Below, one piece after another: positions 8,101 to 61,203 of a stretch of DNA of 64,000 nucleotides. The first letter of the stretch is position 1; the number at the start of each line of letters is the position of its first letter. The DNA is from Manihot esculenta (taxonomy: Eukaryota; Streptophyta; Magnoliopsida; Malpighiales; Euphorbiaceae), in the NCBI RefSeq assembly GCF_001659605.2, contig NC_035164.2, positions 6,747,622-6,811,621 on the forward strand, written 5' to 3'. The position numbers were made by a program, and so were the translations under genes. Under the pieces are notes generated by a model that worked only from the letters and a program-made list of their open reading frames with translations, had not been told where the DNA came from and ran no database searches.

Positions 8101-11100
8101 AGCCCAATTCGCAAGGCAGTCACGACTCATAAGGCAAAAGACATCAAACCTCAGTATGGAAGATAATAAAAGAGAGGAGCAACGGCACAGGCAGAACTAG
8201 GCCATTGGCAGAGAAAAAGAACACGGTGCACATGGGGGTTTAGATTTAGAGAAATCATAGAATACTATAGAAGATGTTAAGGCTTTAGTTACTACTTTCA
8301 GGATAGATATCGGACTCAAGGCTCGTTTTCTAATGGGATTGGCATGAGGAGAAGGATTGGGATCTAACTCAAGCCTTAGGCCCTTAACTGAAGAAGATGT
8401 TAAGGCTTGTAAGTTTCGATTTTCTCAATTTTAATGGATAGAAGGGAACCAAATCAAGAAACAAATTCCTTAAGATCAAGGACTGAACAACATCGATCAA
8501 ACTAAATTGGTTCAATTCATTTTGATTTTTCAGTTTAACTAAAAACTGCTCACCACTAGCACCAAGCTATGATTGAGGAGCACTTCATATTTACCTAGGA
8601 AATAGTTCGTAAAACTACAATTGGATGCCACTGAGTGTTTACATTTAAAGTAGGAAAACACGGGAAGTGAGATCATCTCAATGCATTCAATTTGTAGTGA
8701 AGATTACTTTTCTCTATGGCAACCAATGTTATCAAGGCGAGAGACAAGGCAGCGTCTTTTGAAGTGAAGCACCATATGTGTGTGTGTAATGTATAGATAT
8801 ATGTATACAAAAATGTATTGAAGAATTTTTTTAGAGGGATTTTTCATTTTATTTCAGTTGAATTGATTTTTACAAGGTTTGAGTACTTATATATAAAAAA
8901 TCAATCTAAATTAGAAATATTTATAGTAAAAATAAAATCTCTATAATAAAGCCTAAATAGGATTCCAAAGATTTGAATCCTACTAATTAGGAACATTCTA
9001 TGTTGGTCAACATTCCTCTCAAGTTGGTGCATAGATATCACACATACTCAACTTGTACACATGTCCAACTTGCAAACCAAGGTGTGATAGATCTTGTTGC
9101 TAAGCCCTTTGGTAAACACATCAGCTAACTGTTTATCAAAAGTCATATGATACACCATTTATTAACTTCTCTTTAATGAAGTCAACCAGATTATGAGCTA
9201 TACTGATGGCAGCTTTATTGTCACAGTACAAAAGGAGTTTATCCTTCTCCAATAGTTTCAATTCCTCTAATAATCTCTGCAACCATAGGAGTTCACAAAC
9301 ACCTTGTGCCATCGTTTTATATTCCGCCTCAGCACTTGATCGAGCAACAACACTTTGCTTTTTGCTCCTCCAAGTGACAAAATTTCCTCTCCCACAAGTG
9401 TACAGTAACCACTGGTCGACCTTCTATCATCAAGGGATCCAGCCCAATCTGCATCTGTGAATGCATGTAAGCGAAGATGACCGTGTTTAGAGAATATGAG
9501 ACCTTTTTCAGGAGCAGGCGGCTTCAAGTATCGCAAAATACAAAAAACAGCTTCCATGTGAAACTCACGAGGATCATGCATAAACTGATTGACTAAGCTT
9601 ACTGCATATACTATGTCTGGTTGAGTATGCGAAAGATAAATCAGTGATATCTGCCCATATTCACTGATTCACCAATCCCTATTTGTAGTTTGTGATTGCT
9701 CGCAATGAGTTTCTGGTAGTTTGCAACCTAACATACCAGTTTCTTCCAAAAGATCTATAATATATTTTCTCTAAGAAATAAAAAATTTCCTTTTTTGACC
9801 TGCCAATCTCGATTCCCAGGAAATATTGCAGTTTTCCTAAATTTTTAATTTCGAACTCTTGAACTAAAAGTTTTTTCAGCCGAGTCATCTTTTTGGTGTC
9901 ATCCCCTGTCAATACTATGTCATCAACATAGACTATGAGAAGAGTAATTTTACCTTTGTGATGTCTGATAAATAAGATATGGTAAATATTGCTCTGTTGA
10001 TAGCCAAAGAAAATCATAACTCCGATCAAACAAGCTCTGAGTGACTGCTTCAACCCATACAAAAGCTTCTTTACCCAGCACACCTTTCCTTTTGTTTTTT
10101 CATCAGTAAATCCAGGAGAGATTTCCATATACACTTCTTTCTCCAAGCCTCCATGGAGGAATACATTTTTCACATCAAATTGTTGCAGATCCCAGTCAAG
10201 GTTGACAGCGCAAAATAGCAATACTCTGATTGAGTTCATTTTAGCAACAGGGGCAAATGTCTACTGGTAATTTACTCCATAGGTTTGAGTGTATCCCTTG
10301 CCAACTAGTCTAGCCCTGAATCTTTCAATTGATCCATCTGCTTTGTGTTTCACAGTGAACACCCATTTGCAGCTAACTGGGCTTTTTCCAGGTGGAAGAG
10401 ACATCAACTCTCATATCTCATTTTTAGCCAACTCATTTCTTCAATCATTGCTCCCTTCCAATTAGAATCTTTGAAAGCTTCCTTCCAATCCTGTGAGATA
10501 AACACAGAGGAAATAGACAAGGCAAAAACTATATAGGATGGAGACAAAGAATTATAAGAAAGAAAGTTAGAAATAGAGTGCTTTGTGCAAGACCTATATC
10601 CTTCAGATTACCCCGTCATATGTCTATTTGCACCAGAATCAATAATCCATGGAGTAGAACCAAGAGAAAACGAAATAGAAGCATTATCAAAAGTCCTTAC
10701 ATTACCTATACAAATCATTACCATTTCAAGAAAAACCACCATTTTTCTATCAAAAATAATGAAAAAAAAACTGTTACTGGAAAAAGAATTACTGTTCACC
10801 GGCGAAAAAGGCACCGGTCCAAGCAGATCAAAGGCGCGACTTGAAGATGAGTCTGCCAGAAAGAATCACGGCCGGACAAAACCATTGAAAAACGTCTCCC
10901 ACGTCGAAAAGACCAAGTAGCAGCACGGGATGGCTGGAAAAGGGATAAAAAAAATAGCGTTGGACTGGACTGGACAGTGTAGCAGCATCAGACAGTGTCT
11001 CACACGCCGAGAAGGAAGGGCGCGTGAGCCTCACGCACGTGGCTTTCTAGCGTCGGAGCTGGACGGCTGGCCGATGGTCCGGCGATCCTCCTGGTGGAGG

Positions 11101-14100
11101 CAGTGAGATGTGAAAAAATCCCTAGATAGGGTAATACCAAAAAGGTAGATCTAGATTTTAGAAACTCTAAATCTAGATTTTAAAAACTTTAAAGAGGAAA
11201 AATTGAATTTAAATCCTAAAATCGAGAAAAAGCTCTGATATTATGAAGAATTTTTTAGAGAAATTTTTTATTTTATTCCAATTGAATTGATCTTTATAAG
11301 TTTGAGTATTTATATACAAAGAGTCAACATAAATTATGAATATTTACAATAAAAATAAAATTCCTATAATCAAACCTAATTAGGATCCCAAAGATTTGAA
11401 TTCTCCTAATTAGGAACCTTCTATATTGATCAACATGTATAAATATTGTATTACTTCCTTCTTAATTAGTTAATTAACTAGCATAATTATAAGGATACAT
11501 ATTTCTAATAGTTTTTTTTTTCTTTTGCCAAAGATAGGATATTTCACTAGATGGTAGGAAAGCCCATTACATAGAGAGGCTAGAGGCCCAAGTTGCAAGT
11601 CCTAGCCAAACCCAATATACATAAGAAGCTAAGCCCAGAATAGAGATAATATAAAGAAACCCAAGCCACTAACAGCAAATCCTAGGGCTAGCAATCAGAT
11701 CCAGCTGACCTAAAGAAGAAACTATATAACATAGGCAATCCCTAGGTTGCAGTGCCGCATGCATCGGATGACCACCCGCTCAAAGCAATAGGAGTATCAA
11801 AAAGCACCACAGACAACCATGGAGCAACTAGGAGATAAGTGAAACACAAACCCAAATACCTCTGGGAACCCTCACTCAAAGACGCAGCGGGTTAGATTCA
11901 AGTCGATTAGGAGCTAGGAAATGAGGGGGAATAGGTTTAATTAGTTTAGTTAAAGGAGCACAATCGATGGTTTTACCAATCTGAGTAAAAGAACCCCAGT
12001 TCACAAGACAGTCGTGACTTATTAAGGCAGAAGAATCATCAAATCTTAGTATGGAGGATAGTAAAACACTAGAAGAGAGGAGCAACGGCACAAATAGCAC
12101 TAGGCCATTGACAGGGAAAAAGAACACAGATCACATGGGGGGTTTAATCATTTAGAGATTTAGAGAAAATCATAAAATACTATAAAAGGTGTTAAGGCTT
12201 TAGTTTACTCCTTTCAGGACAGGCATGGAACTCCAAGCTTGTTTTCTTCTGGGATTGGCATGGGGAGAAGGATTGAGTTCTACCTCAAGCCTCAGGCCAT
12301 AAACTAAAGATGATGTTAAGGCTTGTAAGTTTCAATGTTTTCTTCCAATTTCTCAATTTTAATGGAAAAAAGTGAACCAAATCAATAATCAAACATCTTA
12401 AGATGAAGAACTGAACAACATCGATCGAACTAAATTGGTTCAATTCATTTTGATTTTTCAGTTTAGCTAAAAATTGCTCAGTGACTCCATGGTTTGGTTA
12501 GTTTAGTACTATTTTCTAACAATTTGGGAAGCTTCAAAATGATGTAGATCATTCAATATTCAACGTTCGACTCATAGCAAATGCATTTATTTGATAGTTT
12601 ACACTAATAACATTATGATAATGAGTGATAAATGTGAAGGCATTTCGACACAAACATCTCACCAACCATTTTTAGACTAAAGTCTTGGGAAAACTAAAAA
12701 CATTTCCTAAGCATTCAAGTGACACAATCTAGTAATGGTATTGCCATTTCCCACTATGCAGAGCACTCTGGAACTTATTTAAGAGTAAAAAGTTTGAGGA
12801 AGGAATGAGGCATAAATCAACAGAAAAACAACCCTCCACATACCTCAGGACATGTCCAAGAAGCCCAGAACATAATCCGGTGTGTGTCTAAGGCTAGGAG
12901 CTTTGAGCAGCCTCAAACCTGTGTCCAGCTCCAGCACCACCTAAGGTGTGCTCCAAGAAGTCCTACATGCTTTGGGGAGTGTTTCTCTCGCATAAGCCAT
13001 GTAAGTTAGGTGTTACCTATATCTTTTGAATGAGCAGCTACTTTGGGAAGAGGCAGCAAACCCTTATTCTCGCCCTCTTTGCCTTCTGGTGCCCTACTCT
13101 CAAAAACAGAATGCTCTGTTCCATTCCAAAAATTGACATTCTTGCCTCCATCCATCAATACTGCCTTCATAAAGGCTTGCAAATCTTCCCTCAAGGCCTT
13201 GTTATCTTTAGAGGACCTTTCTTACTGCTTCTAGGTTATTCAACTTGTCTTTGACCTCCGATGCGTTCTTCTAGATATCTTCAAAGGACCCTCAACTGTT
13301 CTTCCAGTTCTGCAACCTTCAACATTTCTTGGCTTATGATCACTGATCGAGTCATTGTTCCGAGCTCAAAGAAACAATTTTGCTTCTAGCCCCAAGCGAA
13401 TCCTTGCTTTGATACCAAATGTTAGGGTTATTGATCCTTAACAGTAGAATAAGCACAGTAGAAGGAAAATAGGAGAAGAATAGAAGAGAAATTAGGGGGA
13501 ACAGAGATAGAATTATGAGGAAGGAGAAGAAAGGAATGAGAAATTGAGAGGGAGGAAGGAAGAGATATTATTCTAGATTCTTGAATGCCTCTACTGTGAG
13601 TCTATGTACAACTTATAGTAATTCTCAGCTACTGTAATTGACTCTAACTAAGCTGAGGCTTTTCCCTCCAAAACTAACTGATAACAGTTAAGATTCCCTA
13701 CAAAAGTAACTGATAACAGTATTATCTTTATTTTTATCTCTTCCTACAATATGTGACAGTTTAACATCCCAACATAGTTCAACCTATTTTTGAAGAGCTT
13801 TTAGCTGTTTTAGGAGATCTTTTAGCCCTGAAATTAGATTGTTTTACATGTCCTTATTCAATAAGGATTAGTTATTTATGTTTTTTCTTTAATTAGGATT
13901 TAATTTTCGTATTTAGTTTAAAACTTCTCGTCTGTATTCTAGTTTATGTTAAGTTCATAAATAGTAGTTGTGCAGTCCCATTAGGATTAGGATATTAAAA
14001 CTCTATAAATAGGCCTAATCCTACGTAACTTCTGTTCAAAATTTCAGCTTGTTGGTTAATATAAAATTTCCGGCTGAGTTTATTCGCTCAATTTGCACTA

Positions 14101-23337: not shown

Positions 23338-23588
23338 AAATTAATTTTATTAGAGAACCAAACTGCATTATCAAACTCCAATAAAAGAAAATAAATTAAT
23401 CATTACAGAAATTGCACTGTTTTATTAATAATGTTTTATTAATAATGTTTATCCTATTAAGTCGTCCATATTCGAAATAACTTGTGTTCCAATAATACGG
23501 TGTCGTTAGTACTGTTTTATTAATAATGTTTTATTAATAATGTTTTATTAATAAACATTAACAAAAAAAAAATCAGCATCGTCTACGT
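23338..23588 (+). repeat. Left terminal repeat of the integrated virus
   Basis: It contains the last codons of the movement-protein frame and the AT-rich spacer before the coat frame. Against the right copy it has one A/G difference near 23386 and one extra 14-bp unit TTTTATTAATAATG. The match stops sharply at both ends. Confidence 0.92.
23432..23565 (+). repeat. 14-bp tandem repeats in the viral spacer
   Basis: TTTTATTAATAATG recurs in two clusters, before and after a unique 60-bp stretch (TCCTATTAAGTCG onward). The left viral terminus has one unit more than the right. It is probably noncoding spacer between movement and coat frames. Confidence 0.85.
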
Positions 23589-23601
23589 TCAAACTGACTA
23601 T

Positions 23602-24775
23602 ATGTCAGATTCAAACCGGGGGAAAAGGGACATATTTTTACACACCTATTCCAGAAAAGAACAAAGTTTAATCAAGAAACAATTCTTTGCATTTTGCGAA
23701 CAAGTAAAACAAACTATACCATTTTTTACATATCTCAAATATTTCCATGAAAAGAAATTAAATATATTAGAAAAGAAAATACATAAATGGCACAAAGTGA
23801 ATAATGCAGGAGAACCGAGTGACCTATGTCATGAGTGTGAAAGACCACCAATGGATAGGATATTCTTTAAAAAGAACCAAATAGCTCATGGAATGCAATC
23901 AATAGTAGATACAACAAATATAGCAAAAAATCACATAAGGGATATCACTTTACAAAATAATTGGACCAATGTATCATTACATATTATAGGACAACAATTA
24001 GATAGAATGGAAGAAAAAATAGATAGAAATCATGAAGAAATTACAAATATAGAACATATAGAAATACCACAAGCACCATCACCTATAACACCCAAACCAA
24101 ATACTATATATTTATCTCAAAGATATAATAATGCAAAACCATATGATATAGACTCTTCTAAAAAACAAGTAAACAAACCTTTTACAAAAATGATACCACC
24201 TTCAAAAAACCCCATAGATATAACAACTTTAAAACCAAAAACAGAGTTAAATGATATGTCAAAATTATTACAAAAGATTATAAGCGAACAAAATACTTCA
24301 CTAAAATTTAAAACGACAAGCGGTATTAAAATAAATGAACCCATACAAACTCCAAGCAATACACCAAGCAATAGTACCAGTAAAGATAAAAATAAAATAA
24401 CTATTTTAACCGAATATAATGAAACTTCTTCATCTGAAGATGAGACTATAGACAATCCCTTAGAAGCATCAGACTCTGATCAAGAAGACAATATTCCTGT
24501 AAATACAATAGGAAGAAATTATGATAAAAGACCAGATGATTTAAAAATATTAGACATAAAACAAAAACAATATAATGCAAAAAATATTTATGAATGGAAT
24601 ATAGATGATATGTCTGAAATTGAAATTATACAAATAACTAAGGAGATGGTAATTGTTGGAAATATATATAAACAAAGAGTTGGAGTTACTGAACGTGAAG
24701 CAGCTGAAAATATAATATTAGGTTTTACAGGAGAACTAAGAACTTGGTGGGACAAATTATTAAGTGATGAAATAA
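23602..24775 (+). pseudogene. Viral coat-polymerase polyprotein, N-terminal part
   Basis: The frame opens at 23602 and is open until the nested LTR begins. Early residues include a CHEC cysteine pair (about residue 74); around 140-155 there is a predicted coiled coil (QLDRMEEKIDRNHEEI), then a Ser/Pro/Thr-rich linker and an acidic stretch (about 270-300). At the end it enters the coat core, with GFTGELRTWWDKLLS just before the break; this Trp-rich motif recurs in caulimovirid coat proteins. A G-rich purine tract at 23618-23630 could serve as plus-strand primer. The frame resumes in phase at 27083 once the inserted LTR and its target duplication are discounted. Confidence 0.85.
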
Positions 24776-27082
24776 TGTAACAGCCCGGAAACCGGTACCC
24801 TCTTTGTAACGGTCCGAACCGCTCGGCACTAGGATCCAGATCGGCTTAAGGCCGCCTAGACCCGTAGTAAGCCTATCCTGAACTCTGTGTACCTGTTCAA
24901 ATCCCATACATGATCCGACTGGACTATTACCTGTTAAAACTTGCTTGTAAAACAACCAGACTTAACCTTTCAAAACACTCTCTGTAGGTCCAATCATATG
25001 AACCAAAATGCTCAGATATACTAATCTGAACTAGCCCTCGGGCTATCTATCATACACCAGTGATACTTTACCAAGTAACCTCCATACCCTATGCGCTCTG
25101 CAGCATAGAACCCACTCTGTAAGGGTCAGCATATCATAAGTTAACTTGGCTACCATAGAGTCACAGGAATCAAACCTGGTTTTCTCTAGTGGTCTACTCT
25201 GTGGATTACAGGAATCAAACCTGGTCTTTCCTTTGCACTGGTCTTGGGTCAAGGGAATGAAACCCTATCTTCCCTCACAGTTATCTTTCACTGGGTTTTC
25301 GAAACACAACATTGATTAAGTCTGTTTTGACACATTTCTCCTCAAGAAACTGAAAACAGGATACATGCATATACAAGGGATAAACAAACACTAGGCAATA
25401 GGCAAAAGCACATTCTAAACCATATCATACTGACTTATTAGCTATTACATGCTTTACATATATTTCTTTGATTTACATCATGTCCATACTAGGCTATTAC
25501 ACATGCAGTCTTCTAGTCACCACTCTGCTATTGCTGACTTTCCCTGCTATACTGAACCTGCAAAACTGGGATTAAGGGAAAGGGATGAGCTTCTAAAGCC
25601 CAGTGAGTAGAAACACTGAAAATAGTTCATTCATACACATCTTTTATGAAAATGCAACACATCTCATATATTCCACATCATTGATTGGACATGACTTCAA
25701 AACTCCCTCGACGGGCTATTGATGTCGCCTGGGTCCAATCATCTGGAATTAGACATGACCTCAAAACTCCCTCTAAGGGCTATTGATGTCGCCTTGGTCC
25801 AATTCCCACTATCAATGAATAATGCAATGCACCATCTTCGTGATTCTAATGCAATCACCCTAATACATATCATAGCATTCATGATGCATGTCCTATGCTG
25901 AAAAACATTCTGTTTCTTTAATAAAAAGATTAAGTTTAGTTCTACTCACCTATGCTCCTCTAGCAGATACTGAACTGACTCTGCAACCTCTAACTCTGAT
26001 GACCTCCTCGATCTCTCGGGTCCAATCCTACACAAATGGACTCGAATGAGGTGTCAAACATACTCTTATCAACTCTTAAACAATCCCCTAGAATCCCCTC
26101 TGAATCCTCTAAAAACAATCACATAAACATGCAAAAGAAGGCTGGACAGAGCACCTTCGGCGGCACCTTCGGCGGCCGAATGTGCATGACAGAGCCGAAA
26201 GTCCATTCTTTCGGAAGCAACCGTAGGCAGCCGAAACCTGCCTCCACAAGGGGTTCGGCGGCCGAATCCTCCCTTCGGCGGCCGAACCTGAGTTCATCCA
26301 GAACTCAGCTTCGTGCATGAACAATCCTGCCAAGCACCAACCCCACTCCATACATGCAGACCTCCTCCTTCACTCACATATACGCAGGTATATGAACCAA
26401 GGGGTCCAAAACTACCTACTAACCCCAACAAAACAGCAACTATAACACATATACATACTTACACCATTAAAACATCAAAACTAACCCTATATACATAACT
26501 CTCCCCTTAACCTCCTTAAAAGCTGTTAGAAATCATTAAAACAAGTTGAAAGACTTCCCTTACCTCTTGAAAACAGAAGAGGAACAGCCAACTCAGCAAC
26601 TCCTCCTCCAAAGCTTCAAACCCTCACAACTCTTCTTTTCTCTCAAAAACGTTCAACCCCTTTTGCAAAAGACCAACCCTCTGCATAAGCTGATTAAAGC
26701 TTGCAGATGAGTCAAGGGAGACGTGGCTTAACCCCCTAGCCATGATCTAGAGGCAACAGCTGGCCAAACCACGGACTGAGGAGCATGCACAACGTAGCCG
26801 ACCACCCCAGTTTCGGCTGCCGAAACTGCATGCAAAACCATGCAACTTTCGGGGGCCGAAACTCTATCACTTTCGGCGGCCGAACTTAACATTCGGGGGC
26901 CGAACATGACAGAAACTCCTTAGGCCACTTCTCCTCAAAACTTAACTCTTTTCTGAATCAAACCTTTTAAACACTTAAAAACCTTTTAGAAAACCTTCAC
27001 TCTTACCCTTCTAGAACCTCTGACATTCTGGAATTCCACCGGATGGTAAGAATTCTGATGCCTGAACTAGCCGGGTATTACA
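24776..27082 (-). mobile_element. Solo Ty3/gypsy LTR inserted in the viral frame
   Basis: The segment starts TGTAACAGCCCGG and ends CCGGGTATTACA. Read on the minus strand its start TGTAATACCCGGCTAG matches the LTR at 58715, including the later CCGGTGGAAT word, so both are one family in opposite orientation. Flanking pentamers are AATAA (24771-24775) and ATTAA (27083-27087), a target duplication with one mismatch. No internal domain or second LTR is present, so this is a solo LTR left by recombination. It holds several copies of the palindrome-like TTCGGCGGCCGAA word. The insertion is later than the virus integration. Confidence 0.9.
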
Positions 27083-29213
27083 ATTAAAAAATAACATATT
27101 AACAGCAAGAAGAATTGATACTACCACAGGAGAATATGTTATGGATACATCCACAGGACAAGCACAATCCTTCACATTAGCTTATTTAGTCTATAATCTT
27201 ATCTCACATTTTATAGGAGACTTAGATTTATATACAGAACGCAATAGTGAAATATTACAAAATCTTAAGTGTAGAAAGTTAGAAAATTTTAGATGGTATA
27301 AAGACAATTTTCTAAAACGAGTTTATGCATTAGCAGATCCAAATGCCTATCATTGGAAAGAGAAATTTTTAACAGGATTACCAAGATTATTTTCTACAAA
27401 AGTAAAAGAAACAATTGAACAAAAATTTGGACATATATCATATGATGACTTAACTTATGGAGACTTAATCACATGTGTAAATTTAACCGGAATACGATTA
27501 TGCAGAGATATGAAACTACAACAAAAATTAAAAATGGAAAATAGACAATCTAGAAAGGAATTAGGAAACTGGTGCGAACAATTTGGTTTTGGAACAATAA
27601 AGAAACAGAAATATAAAAGAAATAAACCTTTTAAAGACAAAATTTATAGACAATATAATAGAAAGAAGTTTTATAAGAAATAATATGATAAACAACTTAC
27701 TAGAAAACCATTTATCAAGCGACCATTTAAAAGAAATAATTATAAGAAAAATAATTTTAGAAAATCCAATAATAAAAATAACATAACATGTTATTTATGT
27801 AACCAAAAGGGGCATTATGCTAAAGAATGTCCTGCAAGAAAGAAAATACATGAATTAGGTTTAGAGTTAAACATTGATAATATAGATCAATTATTAGATA
27901 AGATTGACCAAATTAAATTATCTTCTTCAGAACTAGAGGATGAATACAGTAGTGACAACTTATCAGATACAATAGATAGTACAGATAGTAACCATAATTG
28001 TCAAGGAGAAATTTGTCATTGTAACAATAAAATAAATGTCTTAACAGAATATCAACAAGTTTTGGAACAAATAGAGCAAGTACAAGATTCCAATATCAAA
28101 CGAAAAATGTTTAAAAAATTAACAAAATTAATTAATGAAGAAATAAAACAAGAAACTGCACCACCAACTAAATTTGAAGATATTGAACAAATGTTTAAAA
28201 ATAAAAAATCAGTGACAACAATTTCTTCCATGGACTTACAATCTGAAATAAGACAATTAAAACTAGAAGTAAGACAATTAAAACTAAGGTGTGATTATTT
28301 AGAACAAAATCAACACATGCAACAAAACCAAAGTATAGGACAGAGTTCAGGAAAAGATAAGACAAAAGAAATAATAGAAACAGATACAGAAGAAGAACAA
28401 CCATTGAAGTTTAATGATATTACCAGAATTAAGTATCAAAAATGGTATGTAAAAATTAATCTAACAATTAAAGATTTTAAATTAGAAACCATAGCTATGT
28501 TAGATTCAGGAGCAGACATGAATTGTATAGACCAAGGTATAATACCAAGTAAATATTTTCAGAAAACAAAACAGACCCTGTCCGCCGCAAACTCAACAAA
28601 GGTAAAAATAGATTATAAAATACCAAATGCACATATATGTAACAATGATATCTGTTTTAAAACTAGTTTTATGCTAATAAAAAATCTTAATACACAGATT
28701 ATATTAGGAAACCCATTTTTACAAATGTTGTATCCATTCAAAGTAACACAATTAGGTTTAGAAACAAATGTATTAGGACAATACATTATTTTTAAATTTA
28801 TAACTCCAATTAATTATCATGATATTAATATAGTCCAAAAAGAAAACATAAGCAAAATAGAAAACCAAATAAATTTTCTTAAAAAAGATTTACATCTAGT
28901 AAAAATTGAAGAACAATTAGAAAAATCAACTATACAACAACAAATAAAAGGAATACAAGAACAATTTGAAAAAGATTTATGTTCAGATTTACCAACTGCA
29001 TTTTGGAATAGAAAACAACATATAGTAACTCTACCATATGAGCCAGAATTTAATGAACAAAATATCCCAACTAAAGCTAGACCTATACAAATGAACCAAG
29101 AAATGTTAGAATTATGCAAAAAGGAAATCCAAGATTTATTAGCTAAAAAATTAATCAGACCAAGTAAATCACCATGGTCATGTGCAGCTTTTTATGTAAT
29201 GAAAAATGCATAA
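27083..29213 (+). pseudogene. Viral coat C-terminus, CCHC finger, protease and RT start
   Basis: The frame continues the coat core (LKCRKLENFRWYKDNFLKRV; AYHWKEKFLTGLP). A TAA at 27681 interrupts it, but the same frame goes on to a CCHC zinc finger (CYLCNQKGHYAKEC, 27789-27830) typical of caulimovirid coat proteins. An acidic linker follows, then a coiled coil (28240-28310), then the aspartic protease motif LDSGAD at about 28500. The start of RT (KARPIQMNQEM; IRPSKSPWS) lies at 29070-29180. A second TAA at 29211 stops it, four residues before the RT motif RLVINYKP. Both stops are single-base changes in an otherwise conserved frame. Confidence 0.88.
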
Positions 29214-30341
29214 ATTGAAAGGGGAGCACCTCGACTAGTCATAAATTATAAACCTGTAAATACAGCTTTACAATGGATAAGATATCCTATACCAAATAAA
29301 CAAGATTTATTAAATAGATTATACAAAGCACAAATATTTTCAAAATTTGACATGAAATCAGGATTTTGGCAAATTCAAATAGCTGAACAAGATAAATACA
29401 AAACTGCTTTCACAGTACCATTCGGACAATATGAATGGAATATTATGCCTTTTGGATTAAAAAATGCACCAAGTGAATTTCAAAAAATAATGAACGATAT
29501 TTTTAATCCATATAATTTTATAATCACGTATATTGATGATGTTTTGATTTTTAGTGAAAATATAGACCAACACATTAAACATTTGAATATTTTTTATAAA
29601 GCTGTAAAAAGAAACGGCTTAGTTTTATCAAAACCAAAAATGAAATTATTTCAAACAAAGATTAGATTTTTAGGTCATGAGATTTATCAAAATACTATTG
29701 TACCCATTCAAAGAAGTATAGAATTTGCTACTAAGTTTCCAGATGAAATCAAAGATAAAAATCAATTACAAAGATTTTTAGGTTCTTTAAATTATGTTGC
29801 TGATTTTCTACCAAATTTACGAATACTATTGTACAATAGATTAAAAAAGAATCCTAAACCATGGACAGATGAACATACTAGAATAATACAAGAAATAAAG
29901 AGACATGTGAAAATTTTACCTTATCTAAATATTTGTAATCCAAATATTCCTAAAATTGTCGAAACAGACGCTTCAGACCAAGGTTTTGGTGGCATATTGA
30001 AACAACATATTAATAATAAAAACCAGATTATTAGATATTACTCTGGTATATGGAACCCTACACAAGAAAAATATTCTACCATTAAAAAAGAAATTTTAGC
30101 AATAGTCTTATGTGTAACAAAATTTCAAAGTGATTTATTAAATCAAAAATTTACCATCCATGTTGACTGTAAAGCTGCAAAAGATGTTTTAACAAAAGAT
30201 GTAAAAAATTTGGCAGCAAAACATATTTTTGCAAGATGGCAGGCATTTTTATCAATATTTGATTTCGAAATAATACATATTAAAGGTAAGGATAATTCTA
30301 TTGCTGATTTTCTAACCAGAGAATTTTTGCAGGAAAAATGA
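29214..30341 (+). pseudogene. Viral reverse transcriptase and RNase H
   Basis: In the same frame as the preceding piece. RT blocks are in order: RLVINYKPVN (29231), FDMKSGFWQIQI (29348), MPFGLKNAPSEFQ, the active site YIDDVLIF (about 29530), then FLGHEI. RNase H follows with VETDASDQGFGG (about 29957), a KKEILAIV helix and HVDCKAAKDVL, ending DFLTREF. The TGA at 30339 overlaps the next ATG by four bases (ATGA), a usual arrangement for reinitiation in this family. The part from 29214 is uninterrupted, so decay is limited to upstream stops and the LTR. Confidence 0.9.
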
Positions 30342-31684
30342 CGGACAAAGGAAAGGAGCCTGACAAGATCTCTTTGAGATCTCAAACAAACATTCCTAAA
30401 ACAAATCTGACAAATGCAAAATTATTTACTTCTGGACAAACTTCTATTGCTAGACCAATATACACCAGTACTTCAAGTATTATGCATAGGCCAATGAGTC
30501 CAATCTCTAGTGCTTTAATTGTTCAACCAACTTACCCAAGGCCCAGGTCGCCAAGGCCCAATTTTGTTTCACTAAATAAATTCAGTCCACTAAGAACTCC
30601 TCCTGATCTCATAACTCCCTCTACTTTCAAACAAGCAGTTACAGGATCTTCTTCAAGCCCAACAATGTCCCAAGACCAATCCCAGACAGATTACAAGTAC
30701 AAAACCATTGAAGACTATATTCTCACCATTGAACCTGAGTATTGGGCCCAGAATCCTAATATGAATGAATACCAACTTTGTGATACTATCTTTCCTAAAA
30801 CTCACTTTTATATACCAGATAATTTCCATAAATCCCAACAATTTTATGAAGCCATTCTAGTCAATACCAATTCTCTTATTATCTATAACAATTTCGATCC
30901 TCAAATCCCAAATAAATTAAGATATTGTAAGATAAGAATATTAAAAATATGGACTCTCACAGATTGGGGACAAGAGCCCCATAAAACCAGAGAAATGGTA
31001 ATGACAAATGGACAAATGAGACAAAATATCAAATACAATTATTATGATTACCAAATTGCTTGGGAAAGAACTTTCCTAAAGCAAAATGACCAATTATCAG
31101 TTTCTTTCTTTTTCTTTTTTGCAGATACTTTCACATATCCATTGCCATATTGGTTCCATCAATGGTGGAACAAATTTGGAATCAATGAAAAAATAATTCC
31201 TGACCAAATTAAGATAGCAAAAACCCAATTTTTTGAGCAAAACCAATTACCTGATACAATTATCTATTCACCCCAATGGGCTATTTATTGTCACTATTTC
31301 CATATCCCATGGATCCTCATGATAGAATATCAAATAAAAGACCAAACTCTTGACAATTTTCAGATCCCAATTTTGGTCCGTAGATATAAAATTAAATGGT
31401 GGAATAAAACCAATTTGCAGGCTTGTGGCCCACAAGCCATAGAACAATTCTTCCTTGACCATCCACAATACAGCAAGACTCCAAGCCCATCTACCATAAC
31501 CAAACATGAGATTTTCCTAGCCCAAAAACAACAGTTAATGGCACAAATGACAGCTTGTACCTCAGAAAAAGAATATGACAAATTACTAGAAGAACTCAAA
31601 GAAACCAGAAGCTCAACAGCATCACCATCACCAATTGATCTTGCAGACGATAACGATGATTTCTTTACACAAGCAGAAATGTAG
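30338..31684 (+). CDS. Viral frame downstream of RNase H, unknown function
   Basis: An intact 448-codon frame that begins in the ATGA overlap with the polymerase frame. The N-terminus is Ser/Thr/Pro-rich and disordered. The centre (residues about 195-360) is rich in Trp, Tyr and Phe (DTFTYPLPYWFHQWW; IYCHYFHIPWILMIEYQ), which suggests a folded domain. The C-terminus has a helix (KEYDKLLEELKE) and an acidic tail (DLADDNDDFF). The position matches the inclusion-body/transactivator gene of caulimoviruses, but I see no transactivator motif, so the role is open. It is open throughout while its neighbour is broken, which is surprising for a fossil. Confidence 0.75.
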   Translation: MTDKGKEPDKISLRSQTNIPKTNLTNAKLFTSGQTSIARPIYTSTSSIMHRPMSPISSALIVQPTYPRPRSPRPNFVSLNKFSPLRTPPDLITPSTFKQAVTGSSSSPTMSQDQSQTDYKYKTIEDYILTIEPEYWAQNPNMNEYQLCDTIFPKTHFYIPDNFHKSQQFYEAILVNTNSLIIYNNFDPQIPNKLRYCKIRILKIWTLTDWGQEPHKTREMVMTNGQMRQNIKYNYYDYQIAWERTFLKQNDQLSVSFFFFFADTFTYPLPYWFHQWWNKFGINEKIIPDQIKIAKTQFFEQNQLPDTIIYSPQWAIYCHYFHIPWILMIEYQIKDQTLDNFQIPILVRRYKIKWWNKTNLQACGPQAIEQFFLDHPQYSKTPSPSTITKHEIFLAQKQQLMAQMTACTSEKEYDKLLEELKETRSSTASPSPIDLADDNDDFFTQAEM

Positions 31685-31734
31685 GACCCATCATAAACCT
31701 ACACACTGACAAGCAGCCGATAAGACAAAAACAA

Positions 31735-31920
31735 TGACGTCACAGACATAAGGACCCACCATTCACTCAAAAGTCACGGGTTGCAAAAAGACAAATGACT
31801 CATCTCGCATAAGGAGTTAGTGGCCGACACCGACACAGACACAGAGACCCACCATCCACTCAAAGGTCACGGACCGCTCAACCAAATTGAATATTGTTCG
31901 GCGTCCGCAGCTATAAATAT
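31735..31920 (+). promoter_or_regulatory. Viral pregenomic promoter: TGACGTCA, duplicated block, TATA box
   Basis: TGACGTCA at 31735-31742 is a bZIP-type site, like the TGACG sites of the CaMV 35S promoter. A block GACCCACCATNCACTCAAA plus GTCACGG occurs twice, near 31752 and near 31848. The TATA box TATAAATA is at 31912. Transcription should begin about 30 bp on, near 31945, giving a leader of about 900 nt to the tRNA primer site. Activity is inferred only. Confidence 0.75.
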
Positions 31921-32458
31921 GGAAGTTCAGACCATTTACAGGACACACCAAAATTTCATCACAGAAATTTTCTCTCAAATTCTCTCATGTATTCTAGAAT
32001 AGTTTTATCAATCTGTAAGGAGTCTATGGTTTACTACAACCAAGACGTAGCAGTATTTGTATTTTAATTATTTGTACAAAGTAAGTTGTATTTTATTAGT
32101 ACTTTAATACAAAGTATTCTATACATCTGTTACTGTATAAGTCCGTGTTGACGGCACCTATTTCTTTCTCTCTCCGCTCTTCAATCTGAGTTAATTCTGG
32201 GATTCCAGGTTAACAGTGCAGGAACCCTAACCAATTTAAAATCAATTGCATTCATCCTAAGTATGCTCTGTGGTTGCGGTTTATACCGATCTTCCACATC
32301 AGAAAGTATATTGCTCATCTGAATTAATAATGTTTATTGTTTTATTTGATATTATTGAATTCAACAATGACTATATTTTAAAATATTATATTTCAACAGA
32401 AATAGAATATATAATTGCATATTACTTTTATGAGTATATTAATTAAATCATTATCACC

Positions 32459-32692
32459 ATGAGATTTATTATTTCTGCACTAGAAAGTTTAAGTTTAATA
32501 GATTTAACCAATAAAACTGAAGTAGAATGTTTTAAAAGATATTTAATTCAACAAGGAACTTATGTTATGGACTGGCATGTATCAAACCATACTAATGAAC
32601 TCTGCGATTGTAGAGAAACACAAAGAACATTAGAATTATTTAATTGTATGATCATGTATTTAGACACATTATTAAGAAATAATAATTTTTAA
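32459..32692 (+). CDS. Small viral frame between promoter and primer site
   Basis: A 77-codon frame with the same A-rich codon style as the viral genes. It is mostly helical by composition, with a CDCRE cysteine motif near residue 50. I do not recognise it. It lies in the part that would be the leader of the pregenomic RNA, upstream of the tRNA primer site, so it could be a small accessory protein or a leader frame. Confidence 0.45.
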   Translation: MRFIISALESLSLIDLTNKTEVECFKRYLIQQGTYVMDWHVSNHTNELCDCRETQRTLELFNCMIMYLDTLLRNNNF

Positions 32693-32865
32693 GCATATGT
32701 ATATATTTTTATACTTATCTGGTATGATGTATGTATGGACCATTGTATGTATACTTTATGAATTATGTTTCAATTATTGGTATTTTGCTGACAATGACAT
32801 CTAGATATACTGTTCAAATATTAAATCATATATAAAATTATAAACGTATACGTGGGTTCGAAAAA

Positions 32866-32880
32866 TGGTATCAGAGCCAA
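32866..32880 (+). promoter_or_regulatory. Viral tRNA-Met primer binding site
   Basis: TGGTATCAGAGCCAA, the complement of the 3' end of plant initiator tRNA-Met, used by all caulimovirids to start minus-strand DNA. By convention this marks position 1 of the viral map. It lies 143 bp before the movement-protein start. Confidence 0.9.
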
Positions 32881-33022
32881 GGAAGTTTCTAGCGATTTTA
32901 AACTATTCAAATTAGAAATTTAGGGTTCGAGCTGTGTCACGAAAACCGTAAGTCAGGCAGAGAGGTAAGACCTGCAGTGTGAGTAGAGAAGGAAGTGTAT
33001 GTGAAAACCCTAGATTTTTAAA

Positions 33023-34096
33023 ATGAATATGTTTAGAAGAACTAGATCTTCTAGGTCCAGACAACCAGATAATGAACTTATAAATGATTTAAATATTAAT
33101 ACAGATACTAGTAAAACAATCTTATCTAGAGAAAGTATTTGGAATAGTCAACAATTAACAAATTGGAAACCTCCCAAGACACCAATAGATACAATATATA
33201 AAACAGGAATATTAGATTTTAAAGCAGCAAGAGCAATTAAAACCAAAGAAAAAGTAGTACCTCTATATTCAGAAAATCAATCTATGAGTTTATTAAGTAA
33301 GAAAACCATATTAAAATATCTCAATCAAGGATATAAATTCATGCATGTAGGATTAGTACAAATTGCTATAAAACCATTAACAGTAGAAGGATTAAATACT
33401 AGTATGCATGTAGCATTAAGAGACTGTAGACATCTTAATTACAAAGATTCTTTGTTAGGATTATTTGAAACCAGTTTAACAAATGGACCAATATATTCAA
33501 ACTGTTTTCCAAATTTTACAATTTCATTAACTGATCCTCATATAATGAAAATATTGACATTAGACATATTAATACATAACTATAATATGTTAAAAGGATC
33601 TCATATTTATGAAGTATTTTATAGACTAAATTATAAAATCATGAACACAGGATTATGTCCTAATGCTATTGATCATAATAGACAAACAGGAGAAACAATT
33701 TTTTGGGAAATTGACCAAACCAAAGCTAATATAAATATACCCAAGGCAATACAATGGAAAGATGTAAATCTACCAGACACATGGAAATATCCAGTCAAAA
33801 CCATGCCAAGTTTACCTGCTAAGGAAAACACAGAAATAGATTATATAATACAAAATAATGATGGAACAGTAGAATTAAAATTCAAAAGATCCAATTCTTT
33901 TAGACAAACTACTTCTAGTATATACCAACCATCTCGACATTCCTTAGAAACCTCTAGGCGACGACATAATATTGATATACAAACAGATACAAGTATTTCT
34001 GAAGAATCCACTATTCCTGTAATTCCTCAATATCAAGGAAAATTAATTTTATTAGAGAACCAAACTGCATTATCAAACTCCAATGAAAGAAAATAA
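33023..34096 (+). CDS. Viral movement protein
   Basis: An intact 357-codon frame, the first after the primer site. Residues about 95-215 look like the 30K-type caulimovirid movement core: KFMHVGLVQIAIKPL, then MHVALRDCRHLNYKDSLLG with the conserved Asp, then FTISLTDPH. The last 60 residues are Ser/Arg/Thr-rich. It would form tubules through plasmodesmata. Its end lies in the right terminal repeat; the left repeat carries a partial second copy of that end. The frame has no stop, although the main polyprotein frame is broken. Confidence 0.82.
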   Translation: MNMFRRTRSSRSRQPDNELINDLNINTDTSKTILSRESIWNSQQLTNWKPPKTPIDTIYKTGILDFKAARAIKTKEKVVPLYSENQSMSLLSKKTILKYLNQGYKFMHVGLVQIAIKPLTVEGLNTSMHVALRDCRHLNYKDSLLGLFETSLTNGPIYSNCFPNFTISLTDPHIMKILTLDILIHNYNMLKGSHIYEVFYRLNYKIMNTGLCPNAIDHNRQTGETIFWEIDQTKANINIPKAIQWKDVNLPDTWKYPVKTMPSLPAKENTEIDYIIQNNDGTVELKFKRSNSFRQTTSSIYQPSRHSLETSRRRHNIDIQTDTSISEESTIPVIPQYQGKLILLENQTALSNSNERK

Positions 34097-34276
34097 ATTA
34101 ATCATTACAGAAATTGCACTGTTTTATTAATAATGTTTTATTAATAATGTTTATCCTATTAAGTCGTCCATATTCGAAATAACTTGTGTTCCAATAATAC
34201 GGTGTCGTTAGTACTGTTTTATTAATAATGTTTTATTAATAAACATTAACAAAAAAAAAATCAGCATCGTCTACGT
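34040..34276 (+). repeat. Right terminal repeat of the integrated virus
   Basis: Matches 23338-23588 at an offset of 10702 bp, except one substitution and one missing 14-bp unit. After 34276 the sequence diverges at once, so this is the right integration edge. Confidence 0.92.
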
Positions 34277-36592: not shown

Positions 36593-37310
36593 TGATGATC
36601 GCTGGATTTCTTCACCCCGGTATAAAGGCCAGGCCCATGAAAACAGTCCCTGATCCGAAGGCTTCAATATTCCCCTCGAGAGCCAGGTCCAGCCCGCTCA
36701 GTCACAGGGCCGGACTCCGCCTAGACTCCTCAATCAAACCGGCCCAAACCTCTCGGCCCAGTAATCAGGCCCTCACCAGGCTCAACTTCAGCCCTACCAT
36801 TCAACCCAGCCCGGAAAGGGGAAAATGACCAAGATGCCCCGCTGGTAGGTCCTTCCGCATGCGTATCAGAGGAGAATCATACGTATCAGAGGAGAATCAT
36901 ACGTATCAGAGGAGAATTAATGGCCGTTACGCATGGAGCAGGCGCCTGACACATCCGTACATACGGAGCTAGGCGGCAGAAGACAGCTAGCATTGTGGCA
37001 GAGAGACAGATATATATATCACGGTAAAGGCCACGCGGAGGGGCTCTCTTCTTCTTCCTTTTCCTTCCTGGACTCCATTTTTATTCTTTCTGTAACCCTT
37101 GCCTAAATATACTACTCTGAGCCATAAAATCTGACTTGAGCGTCGGAGGGCCTTTGCCGGGGCACACCCGGTAGGCCCCTGACCATTCTTTCTTATTTAC
37201 AGGTCCTTTCACCAGGTAGAACATGGAGAGACCCATCAGGGAGCCCAACAAGAAAGGACCCAGAGGAAAACCAAATCTATCATGGACCAGGAAGAGGAAA
37301 ATATTTATCA
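36593..37310 (+). repeat. 5' LTR of the non-autonomous element
   Basis: A 718-bp LTR starting TGATGATCGCTGG and ending ATATTTATCA. It contains three tandem 22-bp units (CGTATCAGAGGAGAATCATA, 36857-36918). It differs from the 3' LTR by about seven substitutions, a 12-bp duplication and a 1-bp indel, so the pair is about 99% alike. Confidence 0.92.
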
Positions 37311-39883: not shown

Positions 39884-40589
39884 ACAATCATGGGACCGCC
39901 CCAGCTAGGAAATCCCAACCGAGAACAATCCTCTACAGCCATGACCACTTCCGAAGAACGGATCAGACGTCAATCACGCTTTGACCCCACGATCATGGTT
40001 CCTCGAGGACACAGAGGTACGATCCCATAGAACGAAGAATTACTATTTTAGTTTTTAAAATTAATAATATTTAGATAAAAATAAAACAAGATAAATGTAA
40101 AATAATTAATATATTACTCAGCAAATAAATAGATCAATAAAACAATAACAGCATAACTTTAATTATTATTTTAAATGCCCATGATATATATGCTCCAGGA
40201 CCCAAATGGCATGCTTCGCATGTAAATAGTAAGACTAAGTTTAATATACCTCTATGACTCTATGAGTTCGGATATCCTGATAGTGGCTTATATTTTATAG
40301 ATTGAAAAATCCTGGAGATATACACATGCAAAAGTATTGTTCGCTGCATCTCTAAAATTGCATGAGTTAATACCTGCATGCATCTGAAAAATGAAACCAA
40401 GTGACATGTGCGACATATTATTAATTGATGAATATCATTGAATTAACAACGAGCATCCTTGTTATATGTGCTCTGTGCAAGCTCTTATTTTGCAGAAAAA
40501 TTCAGAAAAATAAACAAGACCTCAGTTAGGCACAAAACCAGCTGAGATGACGAAGCGACAGTAAGGCCATAGAGCCCGAATTACAAAGA

Positions 40590-40975
40590 AGACTCCGGGA
40601 TCCCCTAAGAACTCCCGGGTAACCAAACAAGACCGGGATCCCCTAAGAACTCCCGGGTAACCAAAGAAGACTCCGGGATCCCCTAAGAACTCCCGGGTAA
40701 CCAAAGAAGACTCCGGGATCCCCTAAGAACTCCCGGGTAACCAAAGAAGACTCCGGGATCCCCTAAGAACTCCCGGGTAAACAAACAAGACCGGGATCCC
40801 CTAAGAACTCCCGGGTAACCAAAGAAGACTCCGGGATCCCCTAAGAACTCCCGGGTAAACAAACAAGACCGGGATCCCCTAAGAACTCCCGGGTAACCAA
40901 ACAAGACCGGGATCCCCTAGAACTCCCAGGAAAATAAAGAAGACCGAGATCCCTTAGAACTCTCAGGAAAACAAA
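40590..40975 (+). repeat. Tandem array of 36-40-bp units
   Basis: About ten units; the core GGGATCCCCTAAGAACTCCC plus GGGTAA is nearly perfect in eight and drifts in the last two. Two linker types alternate (CCAAAGAAGACTCC and CAAACAAGACC). The core holds GGGATCCC, a palindrome, and CCCGGG. There are no unique spacers. Confidence 0.92.
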
Positions 40976-41045
40976 ACAAAAATAGCCGGCGAAGATCTCC
41001 AAGATCTCCCGGAGCAACAAAGACCAGGATTCCCAAAGATCTCAT

Positions 41046-41570
41046 GACAAAAGAAGACCTCACTGAGGTCCTAGCAAAGGAAGACCTCAATAAGGTCTTG
41101 ACATAAGAAGACCTCACTGAGGTCCTAGCAAAGAAAGACCTCAATAAGGTCTTGACAAGAGAAGACCTCAATGAGGTCTTGACAATGGAAGACCTCAATA
41201 AGGTCTTGACAAAAGAAGATCTCACTGAGGTCCTAGCAAAGGAAGACCTCAATAAGGTCTTGACAAAAGAAGACCTCACTGAGGTCCTAGCAAAGGAAGG
41301 CCTCAATAAGGTCTTGACAAGAGAAGACCTCAATAAGGTCTTGACAAAGGAAGACCTCAATAAGGTCTTGACAAAAGAAGACCTCACTGAGGTCCTAGCA
41401 AAAGAAGACCTCAATGAGGCAGAAGACCTCACTGAGGTAGAAGACCTCAAAGAGGCAGAAGACCTCACTGAGGCAGAAGACCTCAATGAGGCAGAAGACC
41501 TCAATGAGGCAGAAGACCTCAATGAGGCAGAAGACCTCATTGAGAGGTAGAAGACCTCACTGAGGTAGAA
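41046..41570 (+). repeat. Tandem array of dyad-symmetric 27- and 18-bp units
   Basis: Units of 27 bp (GAAGACCTCANTRAGGTC plus a CTAGCAAAG or TTGACAAAG linker) give way near 41410 to 18-bp units (GAAGACCTCAATGAGGCA). GACCTCA and TGAGGTC form an inverted repeat in most units, so each can fold into a small hairpin. Unit lengths are multiples of three, hence open frames on both strands (41152-41550 plus; 40917-41678 minus) with peptide repeats like EDLNEVLTK. The frames look like a by-product of repeat length rather than genes. Confidence 0.9.
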
Positions 41571-42216
41571 TACCGGCGAAGATCTCAAAGATCTCCCGGA
41601 GCGAAAATGGTCGGAATCCCCAAGATCATCCGGTGCTACAAGCAAAAACAACTCATAAGAACGTAGTTCCGATCTCACATAAAAGATTGGGGCACGGGAC
41701 CATAAATGAAAAAGCTAAACTCCGACCTCCCAAAGGAGCTCAAGTCATCAGGTAGAGAGACTTTAATCTCACACAACAGCCAAAAGTACCAAAGCATCAT
41801 GCCGATCTCAAGAAAACGAGCGCAGTATTGGTAAACCCGATAAGACAGACCGAATTAAGGCAAGGCGATTCCTAAGCAAACTGCATACCAAAATACAAAG
41901 CCAAACAGAGAATCAGGGGCAATCATGAGAGGCAACGACCTCGAGAATTGACCGCTCACACTAAACCAACTCAGTTGACCTAGAGAAAGGTCCAAGCAAC
42001 AAAGAGCCCGCAAAACGCTCGAGAGAAGACAGCCCATAAATACTCAGGGGCAAAAAAACATACACAAGAGTCCAACGCTCAGGCAAAAATAATAAAAAGG
42101 CAAGAAAGGGATACTTCCGACAGGAGCAGTTCTCAGACCATACGGTCATGAATAGAGTTTAAAGATTTATCCCCTCACCAGTCATGGAATAACTGCTGAG
42201 GAGATAAAGGGGCAAT

Positions 42217-42946
42217 TGATGATCGCTGGATTTCTTCACCCCGGTATAAAGGCCAGGCCCATGAAAACAGTCCCTGATCCGAAGGCTTCAATATTCCCCT
42301 CGAGAGCCAGGTCCAGCCCGCTCAGTCACAGGGCCAGACTCTGCCTAGACTCTGCCTAGACTCCTCAATCAAACCGGCCCAAACCTCTCGGCCCAGTAAT
42401 CAGGCCCTCACCAGGCTCAACTTCAGCCCTACCATTCAACCCAGCCCGGAAAGGGGAAAATGACCAAGATGCCCCGCTGGTAGGTCCTTCCGCATGCGTA
42501 TCAGAGGAGAATCATACGTATCAGAGGAGAATCATACGTATCAGAGGAGAATTAATGGCCGTTACGCATGGAGCAGGCGCCTGACACATCCGTACATACG
42601 GAGCTAGGCGGCAGAAGGCAGCTAGCATTGTGGCAGAGAGACAGATATATATATCACGGTAAAGGCCACGCGGAGGGGCTCTCTTCTTCTTCCTTTTCCT
42701 TCCTGGACTCCATTTTTATTCTTTCTGTAACCCTTGCCTAAATATACTACTCTGAGTCATAAAATCTGACTTGAGCGTCGGAGGGCCTCTGCCGGGGCAC
42801 ACTCGATAGGCCCCTGACCATTCTTTCTTATTTACAGGTCCTTTCACCAGGTAGAACATGGAGAGACCCATCAGGGAGCCCAACAAGAAAGGACCCAGAG
42901 GAAAACCAAAATCTATCATGGACCAGGAAGAGGAAAATATTTATCA
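42217..42946 (+). repeat. 3' LTR of the non-autonomous element
   Basis: A 730-bp LTR, preceded by the PPT and followed by the TSD ATATA. The 12-bp duplication ACTCTGCCTAG-type near 42348 is absent from the 5' LTR. Confidence 0.92.
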
Positions 42947-55627: not shown

Positions 55628-56820
55628 TGTAACGACTCGGAAACCGGACCGCTACCGGCGCTAGAGTTCAGATCGATTTAAGGTCGTCGTAACCCGTAGC
55701 AAGTCTACTATGTATCCTGTATACCTTATAAAATCCCAAACATGAACATACATTTTCATAAAAATTTAAACTTTTCATAAACTAAACTTGACCTGAATAT
55801 ACATCATAACCTGTAAACATAAAACTCACGCTAGAGCCCTCATCAAATGCTCTAGCATGGTCAACATCATATACCTCAAGCTTGGATTAACATAATTCGT
55901 TATGAAACCTTGTACATAGAAACATGTTCAATGGGATTTACAACATAAACTAGGGCAAAGCACAAAATTAAACCATTACATGATACATTCCACTACTATT
56001 CTATTACATAACATATACCATCAACCTTGGTGACTTCCCCGCTCTAACTCTGATCCTGCAAACCTAGGGGTTAGGGGAAAGGGGTAAGCTACAAGAGCCT
56101 AGTGAGCGGAACAGTAAAAACAGTTTAATAAACTATGCTCATATTGAATGCATCACAACACAAACAATACACATAAAGGATGGACTTGTCACCAGTAACC
56201 TTCTACATATCCAATGTGCCCGGCCCTCAACGGAACTCCTCAGGACTTTCGCTTAAACATAACATAACATGTCCAACTGTGCCAAGGGCGTAGAATGGGC
56301 CTCGATCTGGACTTCCATATCATATCATAATATATCATATCGAGGGCTAGTGGGTCATCCAATATCCATCCACATCAACAGCAAATTATGCAATGCATCA
56401 TATTCGTGAATTCTAATGCACACAACCTATTACATACATGGCATTCATGATGCATGAACATGCTTAAAAGTTTGATTTGTTTGAAAAAAATAGAATAGTT
56501 TAGTTCTACTCACCTTAGGCTGACGCTTGACTGACACTGAAGCAGTTGACTCACTGCTGGTCTCTTCGGTCTCTCAGGTTCGATCCTACATTGATGGACT
56601 CAAGTGAGGGACCAAACATAACTCTAGCAAGACTCTAAACATCTCCCCAAAAACCCCCCTAAAACATCATAAAACATGTACACAAAACAAGCAAAGGAAG
56701 GCTGGGCAGGGGACTTTCGGCGGCAGGTTCGGCGGCCGAAACTCACCTTCAAATCCGAAAGTCCATGCTTTCGGGGGCAGTTTAGGCGGCCAAAGGCTGC
56801 CTCCACAGGCAGGTTCGGTG
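55628..56820 (-). mobile_element. Ty3/gypsy LTR fragment
   Basis: TGTAACGACTCGGAAACCGG at 55628 is the reverse complement of the LTR end at 60910-60932 (CCGATTTTCGGGTCGTTACA), followed by the shared GCTACCGGCGCTAG word. The fragment keeps the distal half of a minus-strand LTR and ends in TTCGGCGGCC-rich DNA where the TRIM array begins. Confidence 0.8.
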
Positions 56821-56823
56821 GAT

Positions 56824-60932: not shown

Positions 60933-60934
60933 GA

Positions 60935-60950
60935 ATGGTATCAGAGCCCT
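60935..60950 (+). promoter_or_regulatory. Primer binding site of the gypsy element
   Basis: TGGTATCAGAGCCCT lies three bases after the LTR end and matches the initiator-tRNA-Met complement. Confidence 0.88.
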
Positions 60951-61203
60951 AGGTTCATATGGTCGGACCTAGAGTGTCGGGCTCATAGATGTTATAGAAG
61001 GTCAAGCACAATAGGAAAAGTCATGTCCACTAGGATAGGATGTAGAGTCCTGTCTTGTATGATGATGTGGAATGCCATGATTATATACATGTGCATTGAT
61101 GCTATGATATGAATGATGTATATGTGATGCGGGTTCATGTGTTTCCACATGAACCATATGATGCTAATGTTTGTGTGATGTGTATTGTTTTTCAGAAAAC
61201 AGG

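Follow-up and report, generated by a model that had tools for sequence, protein, structure and literature searches.

Organization of the integrant

The window, a 64,000-nucleotide stretch of the Manihot esculenta genome, contains an endogenous caulimovirid flanked by two near-identical direct repeats (Table 1). Between the repeats, the Pfam families DUF7588, DUF7746, Caulimovir_coat_dom, zf-CCHC, RVP, RVT_1, RNase H, and MP were found above their curated cut-offs. The caulimovirid domain set is thereby present, namely movement protein (MP), coat, zinc knuckle, aspartic protease, reverse transcriptase (RT), and RNase H. The polyprotein frame is broken by an LTR insert and by the in-frame stops 27681 and 29211. 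The insert has TG...CA ends and flanking pentamers that agree at four of five bases as a 5-bp target duplication, and sister copies of the virus are contiguous at its site, as is the case for a solo LTR. The initial annotation had described an almost colinear endogenous pararetrovirus with a nested LTR, and this part of it is supported; the integrant is an almost complete, colinear caulimovirid.

Table 1. Features of the integrant and its flanking repeats (window coordinates)
Feature	Position	Strand	Basis and remarks
Left repeat copy, very probably duplicated host target DNA	23338..23588	.	251 bp; sequence comparison and composition
Three adjoining 14-bp units in left repeat copy	23513-23554
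One almost colinear copy of an endogenous caulimovirid, with its opening point between the MP and coat regions	23589..34039	+	Pfam and sister copies
Coat part, start of polyprotein	23589..24775	+	DUF7588 and DUF7746; DUF7746 match ends at LTR insert
Polypurine tract GGGGGAAAAGGGA, candidate plus-strand start	23618..23630	+
LTR-like insert, TGTAAC...TTACA	24776..27082	.	2307 bp; AATAA/ATTAA alongside
Remaining coat protein domain	27083..27680	+	In-frame stop at 27681
Zinc knuckle and aspartic protease	27684..29210	+	In-frame stop at 29211
Reverse transcriptase and RNase H	29214..30341	+	Pfam
Second open frame	30308..31684	+	458 codons stop to stop; no Pfam match
Intergenic region	31685..33013	+	TATA-like site at 31912; presumed primer-binding site at 32866-32877
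Movement protein (MP) region	33014..34039	+	Pfam
Right repeat copy, very probably duplicated host target DNA	34040..34276	.	237 bp; sequence comparison and composition
Two adjoining 14-bp units in right repeat copy	34215-34242

Alignment with nine homologues shows two short in-frame gaps in the RT, whose best match in a search of solved structures was an 'Enzymatic polyprotein'. The same search returned no match for MP and nothing convincing for the second frame. Five pattern matches to RT relatives were obtained among viral contigs, and none was confirmed. Rfam and tRNA scans of the window gave no matches, and the Pfam scan of the frames to the right of the viral insert gave none above cut-off. 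In the intergenic region, upstream of the first gene, the coding strand carries an exact tRNA-Met-type 12-mer at 32866, which we take to be the caulimovirid primer-binding site; the match is weak taken alone because the window holds four exact matches. Upstream of this site lie two small open frames that begin with ATG, one of 38 codons (32330-32446) and one of 77 codons (32459-32692).

Sister copies have MP and coat in one frame, and the second frame is without a Pfam match; the virus may or may not be a florendovirus. Extracts from PMC10377300 describe the proposed genus Florendovirus as having one polyprotein of MP, coat, protease, RT, and RNase H, followed by a frame without known homologues. 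The second frame (30342-31684) is only about 70% identical in many sister copies (L023, L025, L029, L031), and their coat and RT regions are about 80-94% identical; L025, for example, has 94% in the RT and 70% in the second frame. Judged from sequence, this divergence suggests that viral lineages may have recombined.

Terminal direct repeats

The two repeat copies share 236 of 237 aligned bases. They differ by one substitution and by a 14-bp unit, TGTTTTATTAATAA, that is present once more in the left copy. The initial annotation had reported just such a near-identical pair, and direct alignment of the two segments confirmed both its coordinates and its differences. When the left copy was searched against the 640-Mb genome, only these two places were found (two of two candidates), and the same repeat did not appear at unrelated loci, at the sensitivity of a DNA search that skips simple repeats and very common words and that distant or low-complexity relatives of the repeat could escape.

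The repeat contains stops in all three forward frames. Under a third-order Markov model of composition, 1 of 61 held-out viral pieces scored as high as the window repeat, and 24 of 72 host pieces scored as low or lower. The composition is nearer to the host flanks of 12 loci than to viral sequence, coding or intergenic, and the distributions overlap. The arrangement is that of a target site duplication: the segment lies on both sides, the inner edges coincide with the viral ends, and the outer edges adjoin flanks that are unlike each other. No viral pieces above shuffled controls were found in the flanks of the integrant. We also considered the repeats as ends of an LTR retroelement and rejected this, as they start with AAATT and finish with TACGT instead of TG...CA, and the bases outside them (GTCAG and ATTTA) form no short target duplication.

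The MP-coat linker in sister copies

A genome search with the MP region gave at least 44 matches including the window (40 of 389 candidates scored). Among the matches listed, the long sister matches are 87-94% identical (94% in L005); most matches end near position 1004 of 1026, and four of the long sister matches extend to the last position. Most stop near 1004 because the sister copies run on from MP into a linker. This linker is coding, comprises about 65 codons (~0.2 kb), and joins MP to the coat domain. In five of the seven sister copies followed past the MP end (L004-L010), MP is open through the linker into the coat region; L008 has a stop in the linker, and L004 has a break inside it.

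Among 20 sister stretches, every copy that extends past MP enters the linker, and then the coat start where the copy is longer. MP, linker, and coat start are contiguous in ten copies (L011, L012, L013, L018, L020, L022, L023, L026, and two in L028). L017 has the linker without MP and leads into the coat start, the copy in L029 breaks soon after the linker, and the virus in L015 ends within MP. The same MP-linker-coat order is seen in L031 and L036. The window repeat gave only short AT-rich matches in those 20 stretches, and L031-L036 were covered for it by the genome search only.

The viral match in the window breaks off at 34039 and is taken up again at 23589, and the repeat lies outside both points. 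The integrant is without the ~0.2-kb linker, the place of which is occupied by the repeat. The MP open frame extends into the flanking repeat up to a stop at 34094, forming a chimeric end. Because the sister copies carry a coding linker at this place, the repeat was found only at this locus, and its composition fits the host, we regard the repeat as not viral. The integrant would therefore be about 0.2 kb short of one genome and not over-length.

These results change the initial interpretation of the locus. The integrant had been said to start and end in the same viral segment and to fit the capture of a linear intermediate above unit length, and neither reading agrees with a non-viral repeat around less than one genome. 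The proposed unit of 8390 bp holds as arithmetic (10702 minus 2312), with the correction that about 250 bp of it are not viral; the same arithmetic gives 8139 bp for the viral stretch (34039-23589+1 minus 2312). A terminally redundant reverse transcript had also been proposed. The terminal redundancy of caulimovirid transcripts lies upstream of the primer site, and we rejected this candidate since the repeat is not viral and, at more than 1 kb from the primer site (32866), lies on its downstream side.

Flank repeats at other integrants

We compared the flank to the left of the virus with the flank to the right at 12 testable integrants, with 132 mismatched flank pairs as the control. The window accounts for one of the 12 and fetched loci for the other 11; two of the 13 loci fetched, L023/24 and L027/28, extend beyond the retrieved sequence. 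The first ten loci had been selected as isolated MP matches before the test was devised, and the same criterion was applied to L031-L036, which were added once a first positive was known. Direct repeats abut both viral ends, with unlike outer flanks, at three of the 12 integrants, namely the window (394 bits), L029/30 (136 bp, 100% identity, 0 substitutions, 246 bits), and L033/34 (603 bp, 98.3%, 7 substitutions in 600, 2 gaps, 1037 bits). L017/18 showed a shorter direct repeat near both viral ends (150 bits). The best of the 132 mismatched pairs in direct orientation reached 45.5 bits. With 100 bp of virus left per side, L035/36 gave 136 bits, which is viral overlap, and mismatched pairs in reverse orientation gave up to 142 bits, probably from shared viral ends.

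A stricter test used 4 kb of flank with 20 bp of virus per side and a threshold of at least 90% identity over at least 60 bp. The window, L015/16, L017/18, L029/30, and L033/34 were positive in direct orientation and L035/36 in inverted orientation, and none of the 132 mismatched pairs passed in either orientation. The repeat of L015/16 is 774 bp long (97.4%), with its left copy 1.3 kb from the detected viral end, and that of L017/18 is 172 bp long (97.7%). The DNA around both is AT-rich and repetitive, and they may be tandem repeats of older origin, which leaves three clean cases. At this threshold, no flank repeat was found at L011/12, L013/14, L019/20, L021/22, L025/26, and L031/32. Long duplication is not universal, because six of the 12 loci have no repeat and one (L035/36) has an inverted one. 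A further partial copy of its repeat (72 bp, 90%) lies 0.3 kb away in L030, and this flank is therefore not free of repetition.

Locus L035/L036 (G000 C11:13414531-13434530) is truly over unit length: the viral sequence begins at coat position 313 and, after a full circuit, ends at position 432 of the coat. A 142-bp inverted repeat (97%) without a match to any viral probe is present in the outer flanks of this locus. Inverted dimers or palindromic arrangements of the virus were seen at L023, L025/L026, L029/L030, and L033/L034.

Viral ends and junctions

Five of the 24 outer viral ends, from four of the 12 loci, fall within 23589-23650, around the purine tract GGGGGAAAAGGGA. Five ends shared some 62-bp interval in 0.05% of trials with random placement, a figure to be read with the interval having been picked after the fact. 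The clustered ends are not all independent, because two of the five come from one inverted dimer (L025/26). The viral ends are alignment ends; the left end of L021 is approximate, and L013, L014, L016, and L032 have no window coordinate. The purine tract is identical in three of the nine sister copies examined and one or two bases off in most others. Plus-strand synthesis of caulimovirids starts at polypurine tracts.

Junction microhomology was read directly from the printed junction sequences. It amounts to TTAGTCAA (8 bp) and GAATT (5 bp) at L033/34, to AAATAT (6 bp) and AT (2 bp) at L029/30, and to 1 and 0 bp in the window.

Insertion mechanism and alternative explanations

We conclude, with a probability of roughly 85%, that a near-complete caulimovirid (23589-34039) was inserted in AT-rich host DNA and that the 251- and 237-bp repeats are the host target, duplicated during insertion. 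The mechanism that fits best is break repair in which linear viral DNA was captured and the target became duplicated. The viral DNA would have been opened near the plus-strand polypurine tract and would then have entered, as a linear molecule, a chromosomal break with sides overlapping by 100-600 bp. A duplicated target means that the two host sides must have overlapped, through fill-in or template switching. Nicks far apart on opposite strands may have been filled in with the viral DNA lying between them, or a repair polymerase may have switched to the viral DNA and returned to the chromosome upstream of its departure point. The junctions have 0-8 bp of microhomology, and an integrase would not be required. 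The LTR element would have entered the coat gene later, with stops piling up.

For microhomology-mediated replication template switching in place of fill-in, we put the chance just below even. The inverted dimers at L025/26, L029/30, and L033/34 and the inverted flank repeat at L035/36 point somewhat towards switching, and the junction microhomology of up to 8 bp also speaks for it. However, the copy in the window is colinear, shows 0-1 bp of microhomology, and fits either route. Filled-in nicks likewise produce direct duplications in plants, as Vaughn and Bennetzen in 2014 and Schiml in 2016 are said to have described.

Integration of this family may often duplicate a long target (136 to ~770 bp), with linear DNA opened at the plus-strand discontinuity being copied or ligated into widely offset breaks; the duplicates would then be a built-in clock like LTR pairs. 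This generalization is tentative, and we would lean somewhat against it.

It is improbable that the virus landed in host DNA that was already tandemly repeated and that the insertion duplicated nothing. AT-rich, repetitive flanks, the presence of L015/16 and L017/18 in such DNA, and the partial third copy in L030 would all suit this explanation. However, the genome search revealed no third copy of the window repeat, so the virus would have had to hit the exact boundary of two units. L029/30 and L033/34, where the fetched stretches hold no full third copy, would each require a like coincidence.

The capture of viral DNA slightly longer than one genome, with the same viral segment at both ends, would readily account for direct near-identical terminal repeats around a viral stretch of about one genome. 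Such integrants are known, including the 1.2-mer in extracts from Geering et al. 2014, and L035/36 overlaps itself in viral sequence. We nevertheless consider it very improbable in the window, given the coding linker of the sister copies, the restriction of the repeat to this locus, and its host-like composition. An infecting virus that was itself a recombinant, carrying 240 bp of foreign sequence in place of the linker and integrating in a terminally redundant form, would give the same dot plot, and the 94% identity of the L005 MP region makes a close recombinant conceivable. This is scarcely credible, as the stops of the segment in three forward frames would cut the polyprotein, the segment is absent from the other copies examined, and the 136-bp and 603-bp repeats at other integrants would be left unexplained. 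An assembly artefact that duplicated the ends would suit the identical 136-bp pair at L029/30 and is hardly believable when the copies differ in the window (one substitution and 14 bp) and at L033/34 (7 substitutions and 2 gaps), the outer flanks are unlike, and the pattern recurs at three loci.

Age of the insertion

Under target duplication, the two copies of the target date each insertion independently. We used rates of 1.3e-8 and 6.5e-9 substitutions per site per year. The window repeat, with one difference in 237 sites, dates to 0.16-0.33 million years (Poisson limits 0.004-1.8 over both rates), and the two stops gained in 6837 coding sites correspond to 0.42-0.84 million years (0.05-3.0). 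The duplications of the sister loci give an age of 0 for L029/30 (0/136) and of 0.45-0.9 million years for L033/34 (7/600). Gene conversion between copies would make these dates too young.

Relation to known integrants

Patch-mediated break repair in plants gives tandem duplications with or without filler between the copies. The window resembles these in the direct duplication of the target and differs in that the filler is a viral genome of ~8 kb.

For endogenous caulimovirids, above-unit length, tandem arrays, rearrangements, and AT-rich or TA-repeat flanks are documented in extracts from PMC4241990, PMC10377300, and PMC526188. Geering et al. 2014 (PMC4241990) report an endogenous florendovirus 1.2-mer and further loci above unit length, and they state that insertion can add or remove short stretches. 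Those over-length florendoviruses are similar to the window in being near-complete integrants with apparent terminal direct repetition; their repeat is viral, whereas the window has host DNA as the repeat and less than one unit of virus. Petunia vein clearing virus is likewise a pararetrovirus with endogenous copies, and its quasi (long) terminal repeats are described in parts of PMC8256270 and PMC12904150 as features of the virus, unlike the non-viral repeats of the window. In passages of Kunii et al. 2004 (PMC526188), the ends of endogenous RTBV-like segments in rice cluster at the intergenic region and at discontinuities, in line with ends near a likely strand discontinuity here (the tract at 23618-23630). 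They differ from the window in the rearrangements and AT-repeat flanks reported in those passages, which describe no long target duplication.

Target site duplication is unmentioned in the main texts of PMC10377300, PMC5452135, PMC12904150, PMC9719215, and PMC8346255; the term 'target site' is absent from the main text of PMC10641527, and its one occurrence in PMC526188 is in the title of a reference. The statement that long target duplications are unmentioned applies to these texts. A passage of the 2023 review (PMC10377300) calls the entry of caulimovirid DNA into plant chromosomes speculative. Long target duplications together with microhomology and polypurine-side ends would narrow the mechanism, and they can be surveyed in any assembly. 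The window also cautions that the terminal repeats of a viral fossil may belong to the host and that 'complete viral genomes' delimited by such repeats can carry host sequence.

Other features of the window

The segments 36593-37012 and 42217-42647 form a direct repeat pair (99%) about 5.6 kb apart, possibly the ends of a young element. Another direct pair, 8060-8552 and 11952-12480, is 83-89% identical and ~3.9 kb apart. Dense tandem repeats with units of ~40, 27, and 18 bp occupy 40584-41580, partly within open frames. Remains resembling Ty3/gypsy elements, judged by eye from translations, extend over 55628-63225, and the segment 60831-60904 is similar (82%) in reverse orientation to the LTR nested in the virus.
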